From: Kordia zhangzhouensis | GTDB lineage: Bacteria > Bacteroidota > Bacteroidia > Flavobacteriales > Flavobacteriaceae | Direction of reading: 5' to 3' | Length of the DNA: 62,467 bases | Assembly: GCF_001005305.1 (NCBI RefSeq) | Contig: NZ_LBMH01000015.1 | Span: 1-62,467 of the forward strand | Shown: positions 25,579 through 62,467 of the stretch, one piece after another | Position numbering within the stretch: position 1 is the stretch's first letter | Layout of the letters: every line of letters begins with the position of its first letter | The notes under the pieces: model-generated | What the model was told of the DNA's origin: nothing | What the model saw: the letters and a program-made list of their open reading frames with translations, nothing else | The model's database searches: none | Program-made: the position numbers and the translations under genes

Positions 25579-27276
25579 ATGAATCCAAAATCCCCTTTTG
25601 TCCTCTTTCTTTTTTGCTGTCTTAGTTTGAATATGTTGCTGAATGCGCAAACGCAAATTGATTCTTTGGCGAAGTATAGTTATGAGGAGTTGAAAGAATC
25701 AATAGATGAAAATGAATACACAGATATTGAACGTTCTAAACTTTATACTTTAGGGTATTTATTAAAAGCAAAAAAAGAAAAAAACAAAATACAAATAGCA
25801 GAAGCCTACTATCTATTAGCTGTATTTAATAGTGACAGTGTAGCATTAAAATATTCTGATAGCATCATAAGCATTACTAAAAACATTAAAGGTCATGAAA
25901 AATTTCCAGCTATAGGCTATTATTTTAAAGGATATTGCTTGTATGTGTTTGGAAAAAATCAAGAATCATTAAATAATTATTTTCTAGCTCTTAAATACTT
26001 AGAAGTCAATAGAAATATTAGGTTAGAGATTGATACTAGGATGTCTATAATAGCTTTAATGAGTAACTGGAAAGACACAAAAGAAGTAGTAAAAAATAAT
26101 GAAGAACTTGTTCTATTTCTTGAGCGAATTAAGGATAAAAATGTTCATTATAGAAATCGGTATTTAACAGCTATATATAATTTATCATTGTCATATTTTG
26201 GAATTAATGAGTACCGTAAGGGTTTATTAAATGTTAAAAAGGGAATAGAGGAAATAAGTAAAGCCAAAGACACTATTGAGTACTATGATTTCGTTTGTGT
26301 AGCAGGAACTGCTCAATACTATTTAAAAAATTATAAAGCAGCAATTGATAGTTCTTTGATTGCATTGCCACATTTAAAAGGAACTAAACTAGCCATGAGG
26401 TATTATTACTTAGCTAAAAGCTACAATAAACTCAACCAACTAGAAAAAGCCCAATTCCACTTCCTAAAAACAGATTCTATCTATCAAGCCACCAAAGATG
26501 TTTTCCCAGAAATGCGAGATGCGTATGAACATATTATCGAATATTATAAAAGTAAAAATGATGTGCAGAATCAAATAAAATACTATGACCGTTTGATAGC
26601 AGTGGATAAAGTTATTGATTCTACGTATACCTATGTAACAGAAACCGTTAACAAAAAATTTGACACGCCACAAGCCATCGCCGAGCGCAATCGCTTAGTA
26701 GAAGAAGCCAAAGCCAAGGAGAGTTCTTGGAAATACAGTTTTGCCGCCATTAGTGTTATTCTGTTGGTCATTTTAGGTGTGTTGGTCGCGGCGTTTCGCC
26801 GTCAGAAATATTATAAAAAACGTTTTGAAAATATTATGAGCATTGAGCAGAGTCGAAATGCGCTTAATCAAACAAAAGAAAAAGAAACGTCTAAAAAGAA
26901 AGACATTGACGTTCCCGAAGAAATCGTAGAATCCATTTTACAACAATTAGAAACATTTGAAGTATCCCAAAAATTTACCAAACAAATTTCATTAACAGAA
27001 CTTGCCAAAAAACTTGGAACAAACCCAAAATACCTGTCCAAAGTCATTAACGGACACTATCAAAAAAACTTCAGTACTTACATTAACGAATTACGTATTG
27101 AGTATGTCATTTCCAAACTAAAAGAAGATTCCAAATTTAGAAATTATACCATCAAAGCCATTGGGAAAGAAGCAGGTTTCGGAAATACAGAATCTTTTTC
27201 CAAAGCATTTCAAAAAACCACAGGAATCAATGTTTCCTACTTTATCAATCAGCTACAGAAACGGTTGGAGAGTTAA
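25579..27276 (+). CDS. TPR-transmembrane-AraC regulator
   Basis: 565 aa. A signal peptide (cut near LNAQ) precedes a long TPR-like helical sensor region (about 50-350). A single transmembrane helix (about 389-410, YSFAAISVILLVILGVLV) leads to a cytoplasmic coil and an AraC-type double helix-turn-helix (about 455-560), with LAKKLGTNPKYLSKVIN and AGFGNTESFSKAFQKTTG. The layout puts a TPR sensor outside the inner membrane and a DNA-binding domain inside. The ligand and targets are unknown. A REP-like palindrome (26840-26861) lies within its coding sequence, just after the membrane helix. Two related regulators lie near 58 and 60 kb. Confidence 0.85.
   Translation: MNPKSPFVLFLFCCLSLNMLLNAQTQIDSLAKYSYEELKESIDENEYTDIERSKLYTLGYLLKAKKEKNKIQIAEAYYLLAVFNSDSVALKYSDSIISITKNIKGHEKFPAIGYYFKGYCLYVFGKNQESLNNYFLALKYLEVNRNIRLEIDTRMSIIALMSNWKDTKEVVKNNEELVLFLERIKDKNVHYRNRYLTAIYNLSLSYFGINEYRKGLLNVKKGIEEISKAKDTIEYYDFVCVAGTAQYYLKNYKAAIDSSLIALPHLKGTKLAMRYYYLAKSYNKLNQLEKAQFHFLKTDSIYQATKDVFPEMRDAYEHIIEYYKSKNDVQNQIKYYDRLIAVDKVIDSTYTYVTETVNKKFDTPQAIAERNRLVEEAKAKESSWKYSFAAISVILLVILGVLVAAFRRQKYYKKRFENIMSIEQSRNALNQTKEKETSKKKDIDVPEEIVESILQQLETFEVSQKFTKQISLTELAKKLGTNPKYLSKVINGHYQKNFSTYINELRIEYVISKLKEDSKFRNYTIKAIGKEAGFGNTESFSKAFQKTTGINVSYFINQLQKRLES
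26840..26861. repeat. Copy of the REP-like hairpin inside a coding region
   Basis: CATTGAGCAGAGTCGAAATG shares 17 of 20 bases with the hairpin after atpG (25210-25229). Two of the three differences are a paired C-G to T-A swap that keeps the stem. It encodes the linker SIEQSRNA between the membrane helix and the HTH domain of the regulator. Confidence 0.6.
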
Positions 27277-54844: not shown

Positions 54845-57079
54845 ATGAAAAAAATCTTTACTCATTCTCTTTTCTTATTAAGTTTATTGTGTGTTGGAAT
54901 GATGTCTGCGCAAGATCGCAACTGTTCTACCATGGATAACTTAGAATTTAGAAAACAACAAGACCCACAGTTGGAAGCTCGAATGCAACAAATTGAAGAA
55001 TTTACGCGCCAGCGTATCCAAGAAATGGGATCGCAAGAAAGTATCTCAGGAAACATTATCACGATTCCTGTTGTTGTACACGTAGTGTACAGAACTACTC
55101 AAGAAAACATCAGTGACGCTCAAATTCAGTCACAAATAGATGTTCTTAATGAAGACTTTAGACGAACCAATGCTGATGCAGATAACAGATGGTCACAAGC
55201 GGCCGATACTGAGATTCAGTTCTGTTTGGCTTCTGTTGATCCTAATGGAAATCCAACTACAGGGATTACCAGAAAATCATCAACTAGAACATCATGGGGA
55301 ACAAATGATGCTATCAAAAGTTCAGCACAAGGAGGAGTTGATCCTTGGAACACTAGTGAATACCTTAATATGTGGGTAGGAAATATAGGTAGTGGAATTT
55401 TAGGGTATGCACAATTTCCAGGAGGTAGTGCGGCTACTGATGGAGTTGTGATGAGTCCTCAATATTTTGGAAGTAGTGCAAAAGGCTCAGGATTTTACCT
55501 ATCGGCTCCTTTTGACTTAGGAAGAACAACGACACATGAAGTTGGTCACTACTTAAACTTACGTCATATTTGGGGAGATGGAAATTGTAATGTTGACGAT
55601 TTTGTAACTGATACACCAACCTCAGATGCTCCAAACTATGGATGTACACCTACGCATGTTTCTTGTAGCAGCACAGATATGGTACAAAACTATATGGACT
55701 ATTCAGATGATGGATGTATGAACTTGTTCACTGCAGGACAAAAAGCTCGTATGCGTGCGGTACTAGATGCGGGAGGAGTAAGAAGAAGTTTAGCATTATC
55801 AGATAAATGTAGCTCTACGCCACCACCACCGCCAACTTGTGATGATGGTATCCAAAATGGAGACGAAACAGGAGTAGATTGTGGAGGTTCATTATGTGCA
55901 CCATGTCAATCTGGTTGTTCAGAAAATGAAGTAACTATTACAATCACTTTTGATAATTATCCTGAAGAAACATCTTGGTCTATCGTAACTGATGGAGGAT
56001 CAACAGTGGCATCAAATAGCTATTCAACAGCAAACCCTGATGGGTCTACAGTGACAGAAACATATTGTTTACCGGATGATTGTTATACATTCACAATCAA
56101 TGACTCGTACGGAGACGGAATGTGCTGTACATATGGAAGTGGATCGTACACAATTACAGGACCAAACGGTGTTATCAAGTCTGGAGGAAGCTTTACAAGT
56201 TCGGAAGCTACCGATTTCTGCTTTGGAAGCACACCACCAACACCAACCTGTGATGATGGTATCCAAAATGGAGATGAAACAGGAGTAGACTGTGGAGGTT
56301 CATCATGTGCGCCATGTCAAACAGGAGGAACAACAGTGCTGCATGAAGGATATTTTGAAACAGGCCTTGATGGATGGGAAGATGGAGGAAGCGACTGTTT
56401 CCGATATAGTGGAAGCTTCTCATACGAAGGAAATTACTCAATCCGTTTACGTGATAACTCTGGAACAGCTTCTGCAATGACTTCTGAAGCATTTGACTTA
56501 CGTGGTTTCGATCAAGTAGAATTCAAATTCTATTTCTATCCTAACTCAATGGAGAGCGGAGAAGATTTCTGGGTACGCTACTACAATGGTTCAACTTGGA
56601 GTACAGTTGCTACGTATGCAAGTGGTACTAGTTTCTCTAATGGAAACTTCTACTCGGCAACAATAACGCTAGACAGTTCTCAAGTAAACTTTGCTTCAAA
56701 TTCTCAATTTAGAATACAGTGTGATGCGAGTGCAAACTCTGACCAAGTATACATTGATCAAGTTACCATTACAGGAATCAATGGAGCAGGAGCAAGAATA
56801 GAAGCAGATGGAGTACAACAATTACGTACAGGACCACAAGGATCAGCAGCAGGCGACATCTTGATTACGCCAACAGTAACTCGTGGAGGTATTACAATCA
56901 ATTTGGCAAGCTACAATATCAATTCTGCATACAGAGTACTAAACTTATTAGGGCAAACTGTAAAAACAGGAACGATAAAAGATGGACGATTGAATGTAAG
57001 TGAACTTAAGTCTGGAGTATACTTATTAGAAGTAACAGATGAAGAAGAAAAAATTATTCAGAAGTTTGTGAAGCAATAG
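54845..57079 (+). CDS. T9SS-exported M43 (pappalysin-like) zinc metalloprotease
   Basis: 744 aa. A signal peptide ends near MSAQ (residue 23). The M43 zinc motif HEVGHYLNLRH (about 231-241) has all three His ligands and the catalytic Glu, and a Met-turn-like NYMDYSDDGCMN follows. Two copies of a Cys motif (DDGIQNGDETGVDCGG, about 330 and 469) flank a beta-sandwich domain. A MAM/jelly-roll-like domain comes next (about 497-650), and then a T9SS sorting domain (last 90 residues, LLGQTVKTG and SGVYLLEVT). It is an extracellular protease for protein or peptide use. It is monocistronic. Confidence 0.92.
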   Translation: MKKIFTHSLFLLSLLCVGMMSAQDRNCSTMDNLEFRKQQDPQLEARMQQIEEFTRQRIQEMGSQESISGNIITIPVVVHVVYRTTQENISDAQIQSQIDVLNEDFRRTNADADNRWSQAADTEIQFCLASVDPNGNPTTGITRKSSTRTSWGTNDAIKSSAQGGVDPWNTSEYLNMWVGNIGSGILGYAQFPGGSAATDGVVMSPQYFGSSAKGSGFYLSAPFDLGRTTTHEVGHYLNLRHIWGDGNCNVDDFVTDTPTSDAPNYGCTPTHVSCSSTDMVQNYMDYSDDGCMNLFTAGQKARMRAVLDAGGVRRSLALSDKCSSTPPPPPTCDDGIQNGDETGVDCGGSLCAPCQSGCSENEVTITITFDNYPEETSWSIVTDGGSTVASNSYSTANPDGSTVTETYCLPDDCYTFTINDSYGDGMCCTYGSGSYTITGPNGVIKSGGSFTSSEATDFCFGSTPPTPTCDDGIQNGDETGVDCGGSSCAPCQTGGTTVLHEGYFETGLDGWEDGGSDCFRYSGSFSYEGNYSIRLRDNSGTASAMTSEAFDLRGFDQVEFKFYFYPNSMESGEDFWVRYYNGSTWSTVATYASGTSFSNGNFYSATITLDSSQVNFASNSQFRIQCDASANSDQVYIDQVTITGINGAGARIEADGVQQLRTGPQGSAAGDILITPTVTRGGITINLASYNINSAYRVLNLLGQTVKTGTIKDGRLNVSELKSGVYLLEVTDEEEKIIQKFVKQ
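55835..55909 (+). repeat. Direct repeat copy 1 inside the M43 protease gene
   Basis: This 75-base segment encodes TCDDGIQNGDETGVDCGG and the following CAPCQ. It is nearly identical to 56246-56320, including at most synonymous positions. Confidence 0.85.
56246..56320 (+). repeat. Direct repeat copy 2 inside the M43 protease gene
   Basis: Second copy of the 75-base segment at 55835-55909, separated from it by the intervening beta-sandwich coding region of about 336 bases. Confidence 0.85.
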
Positions 57080-57108
57080 TAACGACTTTTAAATAATTCC
57101 ATAAACTT

Positions 57109-57143
57109 TGAAACTCCCAAGAATATTTTCTTGGGAGTTTTTT
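57109..57143 (+). terminator. Terminator of the M43 protease gene
   Basis: AAACTCCCAAGA (57111-57122) and TCTTGGGAGTTT (57129-57140) pair perfectly around a six-base loop, followed by a T run. Confidence 0.92.
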
Positions 57144-57212
57144 AATATCACAATTAGAGCCCTGATTCAATTGCTTTATGTATTTATTTTGAATGATGAT
57201 TCGTGGTTGCAG

Positions 57213-57478
57213 TTACTTGTAAAATTTCCTTGGCATAATATAAATATGAGAATCTTTTTGATTTGCTTCTAGAGTAATTTTTACGTTAGTATGTTCCTTA
57301 TCAAACTCTCGAGTTGTAAACTTTTTAACTTTTTCATAAGCCTTCCTAAGCAGTTTTAATTGGTTCAGCCGTTTTATATGTTGGTAGAGGTTTAAAGAAT
57401 TAGGTGTTTTATTTGTACACTATCTACTTCTTTCATTAAGGATTCATATTCTACATCTGTAATGCCATATATATCCGC
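57213..57478 (-). pseudogene. Probable decayed gene, frameshifted
   Basis: Two adjoining open frames on the minus strand, in different phases, together look like one broken gene. The first (57478-57392) reads ADIYGITDVEYESLMKEV and ends at a stop. The second (57419-57213) reads 68 residues including LYQHIKRLNQLKLL and REFDKEHTNVKITLEANQK, with no start codon. Charged, protein-like composition in an AT-rich gap makes chance less likely. The family is not recognised. The rest of the 379-base gap (57144-57522) shows nothing else beyond the M43 terminator. Confidence 0.4.
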
Positions 57479-57522
57479 TTAAATATGTCATCATCTTATG
57501 TCGATTAAATAGGGATAAATAG

Positions 57523-58209
57523 CTAAAAATTTAGTTTTTCTACATAACCTGTTACTGTTTCTCCTGTTCGTTTTCTAAATGCTTTTGTAAAAGATTCTCG
57601 AGTGCTAAATCCTGCTTCATTTGCCATTGTACTTACGGTATATTTCCGGTAATGTTCACTACTTTTTAATTGCTGAATACTGTATTGAATTCGTAGGTCA
57701 TTAATGTACTTTCGAAAGCTTTTAAGTTTATAGTTATTAATTACTTTAGAAGCATATTTGGTATTGGTGTGTAATTTTTTAGCTAACTGATGTAATGAAA
57801 GATTTTGATTCAAAAAACCTTGTTCCTTTTCAAACAACTTCAAGTTTTCAAGAATAGCTGTAATAGTTTTGTCATCCAAACTCAATGGGTTGTTTTTTTT
57901 CTCTTGAGTATGTTCTTTCAACAAGTTAATAATTGTATTCAATCGGTTATCGCCTCGTTTTTGTAGTAAGTAAAGAATGCCAAACAAAAGGAATAAAAAC
58001 ACCAAAAACCCTATCAAGAAAAAGCATGTAAGCTCAAAATCTTCCTGTTGTTGTTTCAGTTCAGCTATAAGCTTATTCTGTTCTTGAATAATTAGCAAAC
58101 TATCTATAGGTTGCTCTTGTTGCCTAAGTGTAGCAATTTCACTTGCATGCAAACAATGCGAGGAAAATACATAGAAAAAGCTCATTAACAGTAATTTATA
58201 TATATTCAT
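57523..58209 (-). CDS. Membrane-bound AraC-family regulator lacking the TPR sensor
   Basis: 228 aa from the Met at 58209 (MNIYKLLLMSFFYVF), a signal peptide cut near LHAS. A short helical periplasmic segment, one membrane helix (about 61-82), a linker and an AraC double HTH (about 130-225) follow, with LAKKLHTNTKYASKVIN and AGFSTRESFTKAFRKRTG. The HTH closely resembles those of the TPR regulators at 25579 and 58910, but the TPR domain is missing. The longer start at 58260 lies inside a terminator hairpin. It may be a truncated relative or a receptor with a partner sensor. Confidence 0.78.
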   Translation of the reverse strand: MNIYKLLLMSFFYVFSSHCLHASEIATLRQQEQPIDSLLIIQEQNKLIAELKQQQEDFELTCFFLIGFLVFLFLLFGILYLLQKRGDNRLNTIINLLKEHTQEKKNNPLSLDDKTITAILENLKLFEKEQGFLNQNLSLHQLAKKLHTNTKYASKVINNYKLKSFRKYINDLRIQYSIQQLKSSEHYRKYTVSTMANEAGFSTRESFTKAFRKRTGETVTGYVEKLNF

Positions 58210-58226
58210 GTGTATAAATTTTTTTA

Positions 58227-58275
58227 AAAAAAGCCATGCGTAGTATAGGCTATGCTGCAAATAGCATGGCTTTTT
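58227..58275 (-). terminator. Terminator of the four-helix membrane protein gene
   Basis: On the minus strand AAAAAGCCATGC and GCATGGCTTTTT pair across a 24-base loop and lead into a T tract. It lies between the two minus-strand genes at 58307 and 58209. Confidence 0.82.
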
Positions 58276-58306
58276 AAATAGTCATAATAAAAATCAGCAA
58301 TAAAAC

Positions 58307-58657
58307 TTAACTATCGACGAGTTCAATGTCGTCCTCACTCTCATCATCGTGTTTAGAAAAACGCATGATTAAAAGAGGAATAATAATACAGGGGATTCCA
58401 ATTATGGATTTTAAATAAAAATCAGGCACAAAATTTATGACAATTAGATACAGCCCGCATATCAAAAACACGACCTTACTTCGCTTAGAATCCCAAACAT
58501 AGGCAGCAGATACAAACCAAATACCGATTAGGGTAAACATGGCGGTATTCAATATATAATTAATAGTATCATTGTACTTAAAAAACCAATTAGTGATTTT
58601 TCCTAGCAAAATGATTCCTAATAGAATTCTAAATATTAAAATAGGGCCTATTCTCAT
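58307..58657 (-). CDS. Small four-helix membrane protein, unknown function
   Basis: 116 aa, four hydrophobic helices (about 5-20, 32-51, 59-75 and 82-98) with short loops, and an acidic C-terminal tail (HDDESEDDIELVDS). No family is recognised. It is monocistronic, with its own terminator, and neighbours an AraC-type membrane regulator. The 252 bases upstream (58658-58909) contain no other gene; they hold the palindrome at 58868-58884. Confidence 0.65.
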   Translation of the reverse strand: MRIGPILIFRILLGIILLGKITNWFFKYNDTINYILNTAMFTLIGIWFVSAAYVWDSKRSKVVFLICGLYLIVINFVPDFYLKSIIGIPCIIIPLLIMRFSKHDDESEDDIELVDS

Positions 58658-58867
58658 AATGTATATTAGTTATTGTTTTTTTTTATCCATAAGTTAAAAT
58701 CTTGAATAAGATTATACATTTAATACCTAATCTGAGTTATAGTAGTAAGTTGTTTTTATTTTTAAGATTTCGCTTGTTAAAAATTAAACTGCTATTTTAG
58801 TACTCAGATTTTTTTGATTGGTGTAAATGTAACGACATAAAAATCTAAAAGTCAAGTAAAGGATTGC

Positions 58868-58884
58868 TCATTTCGTGGAAATGA
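58868..58884. promoter_or_regulatory. Palindrome copy 1, upstream of the AraC-TPR regulator
   Basis: TCATTTC-GTG-GAAATGA is a perfect 7-base inverted repeat with a three-base spacer. It ends 25 bases before the TTG start of the regulator gene. An identical pair of half-sites occurs at 60632-60648, which makes an operator likely. Confidence 0.6.
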
Positions 58885-58909
58885 CAAGCTTAATTAAATA
58901 TGTAAAAAA

Positions 58910-60601
58910 TTGAAAATCAAAATATTAAATATAATTTCTTTATATTTATTTCTCTGCTTTATATTTCCTTCTTATGTGAATTTTCAAGAGTTTGAAAATG
59001 ATAGTTTGTCGAGTAAAACTTTCGAAGAGTTACGACAAATCTTCTATACTTTAAAAGATAAAGGAGAGATAGAAAATGGTAAAAAAGTAGCTCTATATAC
59101 CCTTGAAAAAGCTAAAGTTGAAAAAAATAATCGTATAATAGTAGGGTGTTATATCCGTCTTTGTAGGGTTTCATATGCAAATTCATATAAGGCATTAGGG
59201 TATTTAAATTCTGGGATGGAAATTGCAGAAGCTAATGATTATAAAGATCTCGCAGCAGGAATAAATTTTTACAGAGGCATTGTTTACACAGATTTAAACG
59301 ACTACGATGCAGCAATTAAATATTATTTGAAAGGGCTTAAATATTTTAAAGGTAATGATGACTACATGTATTACACTACCTTGAGGAAAATAGGGAATAT
59401 TAATTTAAGGATAAGACGAAGCGAAGAAGCAGTAGAAATTTTTAAAGAGATTATTGAATACGAAAAAAATAAAGAAACGGTTTCCAGTTCTTATATAAGT
59501 GCTTTATACTCTCTAAGTGTAGCTTACAGTGCAATTGGCGAACTGGACTCTACATCTATGATAAATAAAAAAGGGTATAATTTCGCTTTAAATAACAATG
59601 AGTTTAGCCATCTAAGATTTACTCATTCTGAAGCAGGGGTTCAATTTCTTAAAGGTAACCACTCAGCATCAAAAGATAGTTTAAAAAAAGTAATTCCGTT
59701 TCTCAAAAGTAGTAATGACTCGCCAAACCTTTCTATCGCTTACTTTTATATGGGAATGATGGCAGAGAAGGAGTTAGAAAAAATTCAATATTTTAAAAAG
59801 GTTGATAGTATATTTGAAGTAGATAAGTTTGTATTGCCAAGCTTTTGGACTGCCTTTGAAGAGCTAAAAAACTATTATAAAAATAAAGAAGATTTGAAAA
59901 ATCAACTTCATTATACAGAGAAATTACTTACAATTGATACTTTGTTAAATACTGAATACATTAATATAACAGAAACACTTAATAAAGAATATAATATTCC
60001 AAAACTTCAAGAAGAAAAAGAGTTCTTGATAGAAAAACTAAGTGAGGAAAATAAGGGGTTTAAAACAAAAAATTATGTACTAATCCTTATATCTATAATA
60101 TTTTTATTCTTTGTAGGATTATTATATGTAACCAAAAAAAGAAGTAAACATAGATTTCAAAAAATTATTCAATCATTAGAAAGTGACGCTGAAGAAAGAA
60201 AAACCTCCGAATCTGATTATAAAAAATCAGATCGTACAATTCCAATTAATGAAGAAGCAGTAGAAGAAATTCTAAATAGATTAGAAAAATTTGAAAAAAA
60301 CAAAGAGTTTTTAAAGCCTAAATTGACACTACATACATTATCAAAAGATTTGAATACAAATAATAAGTATATGTCAATGATAATCAACAAATACAAATTA
60401 AAAAGTTTTAAAAACTATGTTAATGATTTGAGAGTGGATTATATAATCAGTAGATTGTATAAAGAAGAAAAAATGAGAAATTTTACGATTGAAGCTATTG
60501 CTGAAGAAGCTGGATTTTCTAGTACGGTAACATTTACAAGGGCTTTTACGAAAAAAACAGGGTTAAATGTTTCGTATTTCATAAAAAAAATAAAAATATG
60601 A
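58910..60601 (+). CDS. TPR-transmembrane-AraC regulator
   Basis: 563 aa from a TTG start at 58910 (MKIKILNIISLYLFLC, signal peptide). A TPR-like sensor region (about 45-340) outside the inner membrane is followed by a membrane helix (about 386-404, YVLILISIIFLFFVGLLYV) and an AraC double HTH (about 455-560), with LSKDLNTNNKYMSMIIN and AGFSSTVTFTRAFTKKTG. The palindrome TCATTTC-N3-GAAATGA flanks the gene on both sides. A role in controlling itself and the downstream peptide/protease genes is plausible. It resembles the regulator at 25579. Confidence 0.85.
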   Translation: MKIKILNIISLYLFLCFIFPSYVNFQEFENDSLSSKTFEELRQIFYTLKDKGEIENGKKVALYTLEKAKVEKNNRIIVGCYIRLCRVSYANSYKALGYLNSGMEIAEANDYKDLAAGINFYRGIVYTDLNDYDAAIKYYLKGLKYFKGNDDYMYYTTLRKIGNINLRIRRSEEAVEIFKEIIEYEKNKETVSSSYISALYSLSVAYSAIGELDSTSMINKKGYNFALNNNEFSHLRFTHSEAGVQFLKGNHSASKDSLKKVIPFLKSSNDSPNLSIAYFYMGMMAEKELEKIQYFKKVDSIFEVDKFVLPSFWTAFEELKNYYKNKEDLKNQLHYTEKLLTIDTLLNTEYINITETLNKEYNIPKLQEEKEFLIEKLSEENKGFKTKNYVLILISIIFLFFVGLLYVTKKRSKHRFQKIIQSLESDAEERKTSESDYKKSDRTIPINEEAVEEILNRLEKFEKNKEFLKPKLTLHTLSKDLNTNNKYMSMIINKYKLKSFKNYVNDLRVDYIISRLYKEEKMRNFTIEAIAEEAGFSSTVTFTRAFTKKTGLNVSYFIKKIKI

Positions 60602-60626
60602 TTTCCAGTTAATTATGTTCTTTTGT

Positions 60627-60657
60627 ATTTATCATTTCACTGAAATGATAAATGTTT
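60627..60657. promoter_or_regulatory. Palindrome copy 2, between regulator and peptide gene (operator, possibly terminator)
   Basis: The core TCATTTC-ACT-GAAATGA (60632-60648) repeats the half-sites seen at 58868-58884. Here the symmetry extends to 13-base arms (60627-60653). A weak T-rich stretch follows, so it could also end the regulator transcript. Confidence 0.55.
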
Positions 60658-60683
60658 TATTCTTTATTAACTATAAATAAAAT

Positions 60684-60691
60684 TAAGTTTG
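60684..60691 (+). promoter_or_regulatory. -7 element of the small peptide gene
   Basis: TAAGTTTG matches TAnnTTTG exactly and ends 27 bases before the ATG at 60719. The palindrome lies about 35 bases upstream, a suitable place for an activator or repressor. Confidence 0.6.
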
Positions 60692-60718
60692 TCATGTTAA
60701 ATTTTAAAAATTAAAAAA

Positions 60719-60934
60719 ATGAAAACAAGAACAAAAAAGAAAATCGTTTTGAACAAAATCAATATCGTTAGCCTTAATTCAGCTAATTGTATTCTAGCTG
60801 GTAATGACTCATTTGGTTGCCCATCAGGAGATCCTCAGAACCCTAAATGTGCTCAAGTGACAAACACAAATACTGTTATTTCTAGACAAAATATTGAAGT
60901 GTGCCGGTCTTATGTTGAGGGGAACTGTGATTAA
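60719..60934 (+). CDS. RiPP-like precursor peptide, five cysteines
   Basis: 71 aa. The start is strongly basic (MKTRTKKK), followed by IVLNKINIVSLN, which resembles leaders of Bacteroidota lanthipeptide-like or other RiPP precursors (Lys-rich, then L-N-K-x-x-I-x-x-L-N). From residue 22 the sequence holds Cys at 24, 34, 44, 62 and 70 and several Ser/Thr, so thioether or disulfide rings are possible. No modification enzyme is in view; the window ends about 1.5 kb later. It lies 14 bases before the S8 peptidase gene. It could instead be a small disulfide-rich exported peptide. Confidence 0.6.
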   Translation: MKTRTKKKIVLNKINIVSLNSANCILAGNDSFGCPSGDPQNPKCAQVTNTNTVISRQNIEVCRSYVEGNCD

Positions 60935-60948
60935 ACATTATTCAAAAT

Positions 60949-62467
60949 ATGTGCTTTAAAAAAATTTATATTCTATTCCTTTTATCTATAGGTTGTGTTG
61001 GCTCACGTAACCCGAACCAAATTAAAACTGACCCTAATAAGGAGAGAGAAGTTGATTGGTATCTTAAAGATTATCGATTAGATAGTATCCCAGGTATAGG
61101 ATTAATTAAAGCACAAAATCTTTTACACAATAAAAAGAGAGATACCGTTGTTGTTGCAGTTATAGATACTGAACTAGATATTGATCATAAAGATTTAAAA
61201 GATCAAATTTGGATAAATATAAATGAAATTCCAAACAATACTATTGACGACGACAACAACGGTTACATAGACGACATTAAAGGATGGAATTTCGTTGGAA
61301 CAACCAAAAAAGATGATGTTCCTTATAGTAATTATGAATATGTAAGAATAGTTAGGAAATATAAAACAAAGGAGAAAAAGAGTAGAACAGAAAACGAACT
61401 ATATGATAAAGCACTAGAAGCTTACCGTCACGAAGTAAATCAGCGAAAAAAACAAATTAAAAGATATGAGCAAATAAGAACTAACTACTTAAAAGGTTCA
61501 AAGTTAGCTCAAAAATTACTTTCCAATAGCTCTTATTCCGTCGAAAAATTAGATTCTCTAAAGAGGACTTTAGTAAATGAAGATGAAAAAAATAGTATAG
61601 ATACTTTAGTATATTATAAAAAATACAATGTTGATAATGAGTGGATTAATAAACGAATTGAGTTTGAAAATTTTAAACTTAATACACTACTCAATGTAAA
61701 TTATAATGATCGCTATTTAACTAATGATAATCCTAATGACATACAGGATTTTCCTTATGGAAATAATAATGTACAAGGAACTTTTAAAATTAGTCACTCA
61801 ACAAAAGTTTCTTCAATAATAGTCGCTTTGAAGAATGATTCTATTGTTCAAGGGGTTAATGATAAAGTAAAAATCATGCCTCTAAGTATATCCGTTGCTG
61901 GAAACGAACATGATAAAGATATCGCTTTAGCTATTCGCTATGCAGTAGACAATGGAGCAAAAGTCATTAATATGAGTATTGGTAAAAAGTTTTCACTGTA
62001 TCCTAAGTGGGTAAATGAAGCTATTAAGTATGCTGAAAAAAATAATGTTTTAATTGTTACTTCTGCGGGAAATGAAGGTATAAATATTGATTTCATTGAT
62101 GATTTTCCGACCGATAATTTTAATGGAAAAGAAAGTGTCGAAAACTTTATTAAAGTTGGGAATACTTCCTATCGTCTTGATTCAATGCTTATTCATAGTA
62201 CTTCCAATTATGGGAAAAAGAATGTAGATATTTTTGCACCTGGAACTAAAATTAATTGTCTGACAAGATACGGAATAGTGAAAGACACTGGAACTTCCTT
62301 ATCTTCTGCGGTAGTCAGTGGAATTGCGAGTTTACTTTTTTCTTGTTACCCAGACTTGACAGCACAAGAAGTGAAAGAAATTATCCTGAATTCAGGAACT
62401 TCAATTGACCTTATGGTGTTAAGACCTTATCCAGATGGAGCGAAAAGAGATCCTAATAAAGTACCTT
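60949..62467 (+). CDS. Subtilisin-family (S8) lipoprotein peptidase, cut by the window end
   Basis: 506 residues are visible from the ATG at 60949; no stop before the edge. Lipobox LLSIGC (Cys16) predicts a lipoprotein. The S8 catalytic elements are present: Asp in VAVIDTELDIDH, His in ISHSTKVSS (the usual HGTxVA is altered), oxyanion Asn in TSAGNEG, and Ser in DTGTSLSSAVVSG. About 150 residues of charged, mostly helical insertion separate the Asp and His motifs, longer than in plain subtilisins. The close spacing to the peptide gene suggests it acts on that peptide, perhaps removing its leader; this is inference. Confidence 0.85.
   Translation, partial: MCFKKIYILFLLSIGCVGSRNPNQIKTDPNKEREVDWYLKDYRLDSIPGIGLIKAQNLLHNKKRDTVVVAVIDTELDIDHKDLKDQIWININEIPNNTIDDDNNGYIDDIKGWNFVGTTKKDDVPYSNYEYVRIVRKYKTKEKKSRTENELYDKALEAYRHEVNQRKKQIKRYEQIRTNYLKGSKLAQKLLSNSSYSVEKLDSLKRTLVNEDEKNSIDTLVYYKKYNVDNEWINKRIEFENFKLNTLLNVNYNDRYLTNDNPNDIQDFPYGNNNVQGTFKISHSTKVSSIIVALKNDSIVQGVNDKVKIMPLSISVAGNEHDKDIALAIRYAVDNGAKVINMSIGKKFSLYPKWVNEAIKYAEKNNVLIVTSAGNEGINIDFIDDFPTDNFNGKESVENFIKVGNTSYRLDSMLIHSTSNYGKKNVDIFAPGTKINCLTRYGIVKDTGTSLSSAVVSGIASLLFSCYPDLTAQEVKEIILNSGTSIDLMVLRPYPDGAKRDPNKVP

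Follow-up and report, generated by a model that had tools for sequence, protein, structure and literature searches.

A palindrome repeated on both sides of a TPR-AraC membrane regulator gene of Kordia zhangzhouensis as a probable private operator of the regulator and its partner peptide gene

The contig NZ_LBMH01000015.1 of Kordia zhangzhouensis, 62,467 nucleotides long and analysed here in its full length (the window), encodes near its end a membrane regulator with TPR, TM and AraC-type HTH parts, followed by a short precursor-like peptide and an S8 protease whose gene is incomplete because the window is the whole contig. The same palindrome, TCATTTC-N3-GAAATGA, stands before the regulator gene and again before the peptide gene (Table 1), which raises the question of which protein reads the two sites and which genes it would control through them.

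Table 1. Features of the regulator locus, with positions numbered along the window.
Feature	Position	Strand	Description
Short TM + AraC-type HTH protein, no TPR	57523..58260	-	Circuit membership uncertain
Operator-like dyad 1	58868..58884	.	TCATTTC-GTG-GAAATGA; centre 34 bp before the TTG start of the regulator
Membrane regulator	58910..60601	+	N-terminal hydrophobic stretch ~1-24, TPR solenoid ~38-360, TM ~389-408, AraC-type HTH ~448-562
Operator-like dyad 2	60627..60653	.	13-bp arms around one base; contains TCATTTC-ACT-GAAATGA at 60632-60648
-7-like element	60684..60691	+	TAAGTTTG; fits TAnnTTTG
Precursor-like peptide, 71 aa	60719..60934	+	Leader ...IVLNKINIVSL...ILAGN; four Cys in core, one in leader
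S8 protease (subtilisin-like); by eye a putative lipoprotein	60949..62467	+	Cut by contig end

The regulator gene opens with TTG, an in-frame ATG near the start being absent, and its product matches TPR_12 as well as PF12833 (HTH_18; 36.8 bits, cut-off 33.6), which places its HTH in the AraC type; the score against PF00165 (24.5 bits) lies under the cut-off of 26.6. Its signal and TM stretches were assigned by eye from the sequence. An AlphaFold model based on an alignment of 36 homologues (mean pLDDT 88) predicts the solenoid and the HTH domain within the limits given in Table 1, and a single long helix (residues 363-429) that includes the hydrophobic stretch. In a fold search with the regulator, the best matches were partner-bound TPR domains of LGN, and Rap-Phr (6t46) stood at rank 49; these matches are to be read as fold resemblance, not as ligand evidence. 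The leader/core boundary of the peptide was likewise set by eye. TAnnTTTG is the Bacteroidetes -7 promoter consensus, and the centre of dyad 2 lies 44 bp upstream of TAAGTTTG; about 44 bp upstream of a -7 element is the usual position of an activator. Upstream of the regulator there is one dyad only, with no tandem partner, and TAnnTTTG was not found near it. The window holds a second TPR-AraC gene (25579-27276), which has no GG peptide and, by eye, precedes hydrolase-like and sigma-factor-like genes; an arrangement in another genome (G002:C6) resembles it.

The first-pass annotation had placed the two palindromes correctly, with all 14 arm bases identical, and had reported the window to be free of a third full copy; none was found even with up to two mismatches. 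Site 2 is longer than the core noted there, being a 27-bp palindrome, ATTTATCATTTCA-C-TGAAATGATAAAT. At least two matches with up to two mismatches occurred in 19 of 100 shuffles, so two are in themselves unremarkable, but both observed ones are perfect. Taken singly, perfect 7-N3-7 dyads number 9 in the window and average 8 per shuffled window; a pair with identical arms within 2 kb appeared in 1 of 200 dinucleotide shuffles, and the pair described here is the only one of that kind in 224 kb of DNA from the same genome, in stretches picked on other grounds. High genomic frequency, which had been named as a sign against a regulatory role, was not seen: the 4.03-Mb genome contains two perfect palindromes, both at this locus, and four places with one mismatch (a reversed control pattern has two places with at most one mismatch). 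One of the four, C1:23325-23341, directly precedes a TPR-AraC gene (C1:21662-23308), the closest long paralogue of the window regulator (36% identity), after which comes an S8 paralogue (C1:19758-21188), and the other three one-mismatch sites lie within open reading frames.

Across 11 genomes of the genus, 62 places match the palindrome with at most one mismatch, compared with 13 for the reversed control; at least five of the 62 adjoin a regulator among the matches listed (three in this genome, with G006:C43 and G008:C14), and 15 of the 18 places inspected are inside open frames. Since most of these places are not beside a listed regulator, the exact word is no genus-wide signal; related words, unlike the exact one, do appear from sequence comparison to be such a signal. 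One perfect copy in another genome (G010, C3:563695-563711; L100 1501-1517) lies outside frames of at least 100 aa and has no TPR-AraC neighbour among the matches listed. The three closest regulators among the matches listed (45-47% identity to the window regulator) each have two dyads 22 bp apart upstream, and the half-site GAAATGAG ends five of these six; it occurs upstream in all three loci and before the peptide in two, with a variant there in the third (peptide-side dyads CTACTTTCAAGGAAATGAG, CTCTTTTCAGTGAAATGAG and CTCTTTTCACGGAAAGTAG). Related dyads thus accompany both regions at all three loci, and the absence beside orthologous regulators that could have spoken against a regulatory site was not observed.

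Homologues of the window regulator occur in all 11 genomes of the genus, with 19 to 62 matches each when partial ones are counted. A first set of 45 regulators was made up of 10 from this genome, where 13 have open frames of at least 563 aa, and 35 others chosen for high rank or S8 adjacency; a second set of 40 new regulators was taken from the same match list blind to their neighbours, with peptides called by a leader regex. In the first set, the next gene encodes a short peptide that is basic at its start and has an LxLxK-like stretch and a leader end of GG type (GG or, e.g., AG) at 38 of 45 loci, including nine of the ten examined in this genome; one candidate, at G005:C13, was removed (39 to 38), its regex match being the start of a long secreted protein. 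A GG-type-leader peptide adjoins 33 of 40 regulators in the second set, and thus follows 71 of 85 TPR-TM-AraC regulators in both sets. An S8 gene follows 17 of the 41 full-length regulators tallied; set against 71 of 85, this makes the peptide, not the protease, the usual partner. Among other relatives, the regulator gene of Aquimarina aggregata (L153) is followed by a GG peptide and then an S8 gene, as in the window, and no clear paired site was found there; Dokdonia pacifica (L158) has a regulator, a GG peptide and a candidate paired site; and five Flavobacterium relatives show neither arrangement, with no GG peptide next to the regulator.

Several further features of these neighbourhoods were observed. 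Flavobacterium TPR-AraC homologues (L154-L157) adjoin genes that by eye resemble parts of integrated elements, and one homologue of the window regulator (L117 7985-13500, in G004) is in pieces, with a 400-aa transposase-like ORF (by eye) between them. A protein of 166-170 aa starting MYLIW or similar stands beside S8 genes (L115 8209-8712, L119 10035-10547, L113 8132-8632 and others); the two members scanned had no Pfam match. A subfamily of cassette peptides ending DTIDTQ lies beside TPR-AraC genes at L200, L202, L204, L208, L210, L213, L214, L216 and G000:C12:62180.

The 180 nt upstream of each regulator were compared with the 35-125 nt before the next ORF, using the best 19-mer on either strand. 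This was done for 42 loci of the first set (three of 45 were omitted, having no suitable next ORF); the next ORF is the peptide in 38, and four loci (G002:C12, G005:C13, G007:C213 and G000:C7:25600) lack a GG-type peptide and entered the comparison with the stretch ahead of whatever ORF comes next. Similarity averaged 16.18 within a locus and 14.28 between loci, a difference reached in 0 of 20,000 permutations; the locus's own upstream region ranked first for nine of 42 loci and among the best three for 19 (third of 42 for the window, sixth to 35th for the other nine regulators of this genome). Controls were flat: p was 0.16 for upstream against peptide coding DNA, 0.25 for far-upstream against intergenic DNA and 0.39 for regulator coding against intergenic DNA. 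In the second set (33 loci) the effect was smaller (15.07 within vs. 14.08 between, p = 2e-4), with the upstream/peptide coding control flat (p = 0.58) and the far upstream/intergenic control raised (14.17 vs. 13.71, p = 0.006). Taken alone, a single palindrome is seldom significant: of 36 loci, five reached p <= 0.05 in the upstream region and nine in the intergenic one.

The commonest core is TTC-N3-GAA, with locus-specific flanks. Over 39 loci (averages over 39 loci still include G005:C13, which counts over 38 exclude), it has 33 copies upstream of regulators and 19 in intergenic regions, in 19 loci each, with a background of two copies far upstream and one in regulator coding DNA. Both regions carry it at 17 of 38 peptide loci of the first set and five of 33 of the second (22 of 71), the intergenic copy lying about 75-95 bp before the peptide ATG. 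Neither region carries it at 17 of 38 first-set loci; in core-less loci (n = 22) some within-locus similarity remains, with other dyads (15.05 vs. 14.10, p = 4e-4). Among the 10 loci examined in this genome, the window locus alone has the core in both regions; the C1:21662 locus has tandem upstream cores and none before the peptide. Spacing and position recur as well: upstream self-similarity peaks at lags of 21 (z = 4.6) and 22 (z = 2.2), and tandem upstream cores 21-22 bp apart are found at 13 of 38 first-set loci and at four of 33 second-set loci (all at 21), a spacing of two helical turns that would fit binding on one face of the DNA. Strong dyads peak 70-100 nt before the peptide ATG (4, 7 and 4 of 39 loci per 10-nt bin, 0-2 elsewhere), with an extra group of five of 39 loci at 120-130 nt. 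Of the first-set cassettes, 19 of 38 have TAnnTTTG at a distance of 32-40 nt ahead of the peptide start codon (ATG); of the second-set ones, 10 of 33 have it at 31-41 nt.

Which protein reads the dyads is suggested by how they vary. Over the same 42 loci, operator similarity between loci tracks HTH identity (Mantel r = 0.46, p = 2e-4): it averages 14.0-14.4 for the 809 pairs under 60% HTH identity and 16.1-16.2 for the 52 pairs over that value, and locus pairs with at least 60% HTH identity match the similarity seen within loci. In partial Mantel comparisons, HTH and TPR identity are tied equally to operator similarity (r = 0.18 each). Shared descent alone hardly explains this co-variation, because the intergenic region is not a copy of the upstream one. 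Across the genus, the dyads pair within loci and vary with the HTH domain. The first-pass proposal that the TPR-AraC protein binds both sites and controls itself and the peptide-protease genes gains support from these paired, co-varying dyads in the sequences compared, and its emphasis on the protease holds in part, for the 17 of 41 loci with an S8 gene. Two perfect copies, recurring paired dyads at homologues, similar geometry, locus-specific words and co-variation with the regulator are what the comparison of sequences brings to light, and they point to a candidate DNA target of the regulator near a predicted promoter. We consider it probable, with good confidence, that the TPR-TM-AraC protein uses the two palindromes that flank its gene as its operators, and that a private operator of this kind controls the regulator and its partner peptide.

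An unlikely alternative is that the dyads are bound by another protein, such as the divergently encoded short TM-AraC protein (Table 1), with the TPR-AraC protein a mere passenger. The HTH of the short protein is indeed related (40% identity to the C-terminal part of the window regulator), and 10 of 17 S8-type loci, but none of the 24 others, have a homologue of it no more than 8 kb from the TPR-AraC gene, in stretches of ~6-20 kb; however, at 31 of 41 regulators no such homologue was found within 8 kb (stretches of ~6-20 kb can miss farther copies), and these include loci with dyads in both regions, such as L120, L126, L142, L143 and L149. The short protein might also cooperate or compete with the regulator at these operators. 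Less probable still is that the palindromes act as RNA hairpins, in a terminator after the regulator gene or a 5' leader structure: the RNA fold of site 2 is strong (-10.8 kcal/mol, z = -4.1, equalled in 1 of 200 shuffles), but that of site 1 is weak (z = -1.7), and upstream of regulators the motif often recurs at 21-22 bp, while before the peptide it sits upstream of the -7-like element. The terminator and RNA-family readings were dropped, as no terminator-like site was found in 58600-61000 and nothing in 57000-62467 reached the gathering score of an Rfam family. That the repeat is chance or a functionless relic is the least credible reading, for although single perfect dyads are as frequent in shuffled DNA as noted above and most genus places with at most one mismatch are not beside a listed regulator, a repeated pair is rare in shuffles and locus-specific dyad pairs recur across the genus.

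Leaders of Bacteroidetes class I LanA peptides have the form LxLxKx5L and many end in Gly-Gly, with a C39 protease often encoded in the cluster, according to the part of the work considered here (Walker et al. 2020, PMC7268733). The leader of the window peptide reads by eye IxLxKx5L with an AG end, and many cassette peptides have GG. The window peptide has no Pfam family match, scores 10.8 bits against the NF038153 lanthipeptide leader model (cut-off 22) and has no match to TIGR04149 (rSAM-modified RiPP); none of eight other cassette peptides scanned reaches either cut-off (best 16.5 bits for NF038153; 12.4 vs. 25 bits for TIGR04149). PF04738 (LanB) has exactly one match in each of the 11 genus genomes. 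This genome has one LanB and three LanC-like matches, not linked to the window locus: the LanB cluster (G000:C12:15583-26264; L162 5583-16264) encodes a LanC, LanB N- and C-domains, a TPR-AraC protein and two GG peptides, with an HlyD-like protein and a C39 ABC transporter on the opposite strand, and two more LanC-like matches and one more C39 match lie outside it. Among the matches listed, LanB has a TPR-AraC gene no farther than 2 kb away in at least four genomes (G000, G003, G004 and G009), and in a fifth (G002) the distance is at most 3.5 kb. Given a LanA-like leader and a lone LanB machinery elsewhere in the genome, the LanB/LanC/C39 machinery may act on the window peptide as an orphan substrate; eight of 71 cassette peptides have no Cys, which counts against a lanthipeptide substrate.

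In the mechanism proposed, the TPR solenoid would lie in the periplasm and a signal there would be relayed through the TM helix to the cytoplasmic HTH domain, which would bind the dyad ~45 bp upstream of the -7-like element of the peptide gene and activate that gene (and the S8 protease gene). Binding before the regulator's own gene would bring about auto-regulation, positive or negative. The peptide would be an orphan precursor of LanA-like type, which LanB/LanC/C39 encoded elsewhere in the genome may modify and export. As the operators have diverged together with the regulators, little cross-talk would be expected between the paralogous switches of a cell. A plausible ligand for the TPR domain is the peptide. 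A broader arrangement may be entertained tentatively, as rather doubtful: a multi-channel signalling system of a Gram-negative phylum, in which shared lanthipeptide machinery modifies and exports orphan GG-leader peptides, each the ligand of its own periplasmic TPR groove, and the regulator amplifies both genes through its private operator, giving some ten to several tens of insulated lines per genome. The hint behind it is that peptide cores track TPR rather than HTH identity: in 71 pairs, core similarity depends on TPR identity when HTH identity is held constant (r = 0.40, p = 3e-4) and not on HTH identity when TPR identity is held constant (r = 0.035, p = 0.23), a correlation carried by close pairs only (r = 0.03 among 2265 comparisons below 40% TPR identity).

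The locus family offers a testable cis-regulatory code for many regulator-peptide pairs of Flavobacteriaceae, and it links orphan precursor-like peptides to genomes with a single LanB. Diverged AraC-operator pairs form a natural set for reading rules of DNA recognition and the insulation of paralogues, and, if the peptides are indeed the ligands, a one-component route of peptide sensing in Gram-negative bacteria would follow. Dozens of sensor-peptide pairs in this species and its relatives, many with their own version of the site, hint at a large family of peptide-linked switches.

In the collection and with the terms searched, no description of TPR-AraC regulators paired with GG-leader peptides was recognised. 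In lantibiotic auto-induction of the NisRK type, the precursor is under a dedicated adjacent sensor; the present loci differ in having a one-component TPR-AraC protein instead of a two-component system, and many paralogous pairs. In RRNPP systems (Rap-Phr and kin, Firmicutes), a TPR receptor gene is adjacent to a small peptide gene, as the part of the source consulted has it (PMC10075063); the likeness is that the window TPR regulator gene adjoins a peptide gene, for which a signal role is here assumed. The RRNPP receptor is intracellular, however, whereas the window regulator appears membrane-anchored (TM stretch by eye between TPR and HTH), which sets it apart from that family, and it further carries a C-terminal AraC HTH and has peptides with GG-type leaders, whose role as ligands is hypothetical. 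Bacteroidetes class I lanthipeptides (split LanB, as in pinensin) have reported leaders of the LxLxKx5L/Gly-Gly form, to judge from the part of that account consulted (PMC7268733), which the window leader resembles by eye, and in this genome a split LanB, LanC and C39 transporter stand beside a TPR-AraC/peptide pair; in contrast, the window peptide is unlinked to the enzymes, its leader ends AG-N and it falls under the curated leader cut-off. For Bacteroidales RiPPs, the portion of the source considered reports TPR-like genes in two predicted clusters, with such domains regulating genes after pheromone binding in other bacteria, and raises signalling by mature peptides for some other clusters (PMC10352776); the AraC fusion, the putative operator and the one-to-one pairing, unnamed in that portion (PMC10352776), are features of the loci described here.
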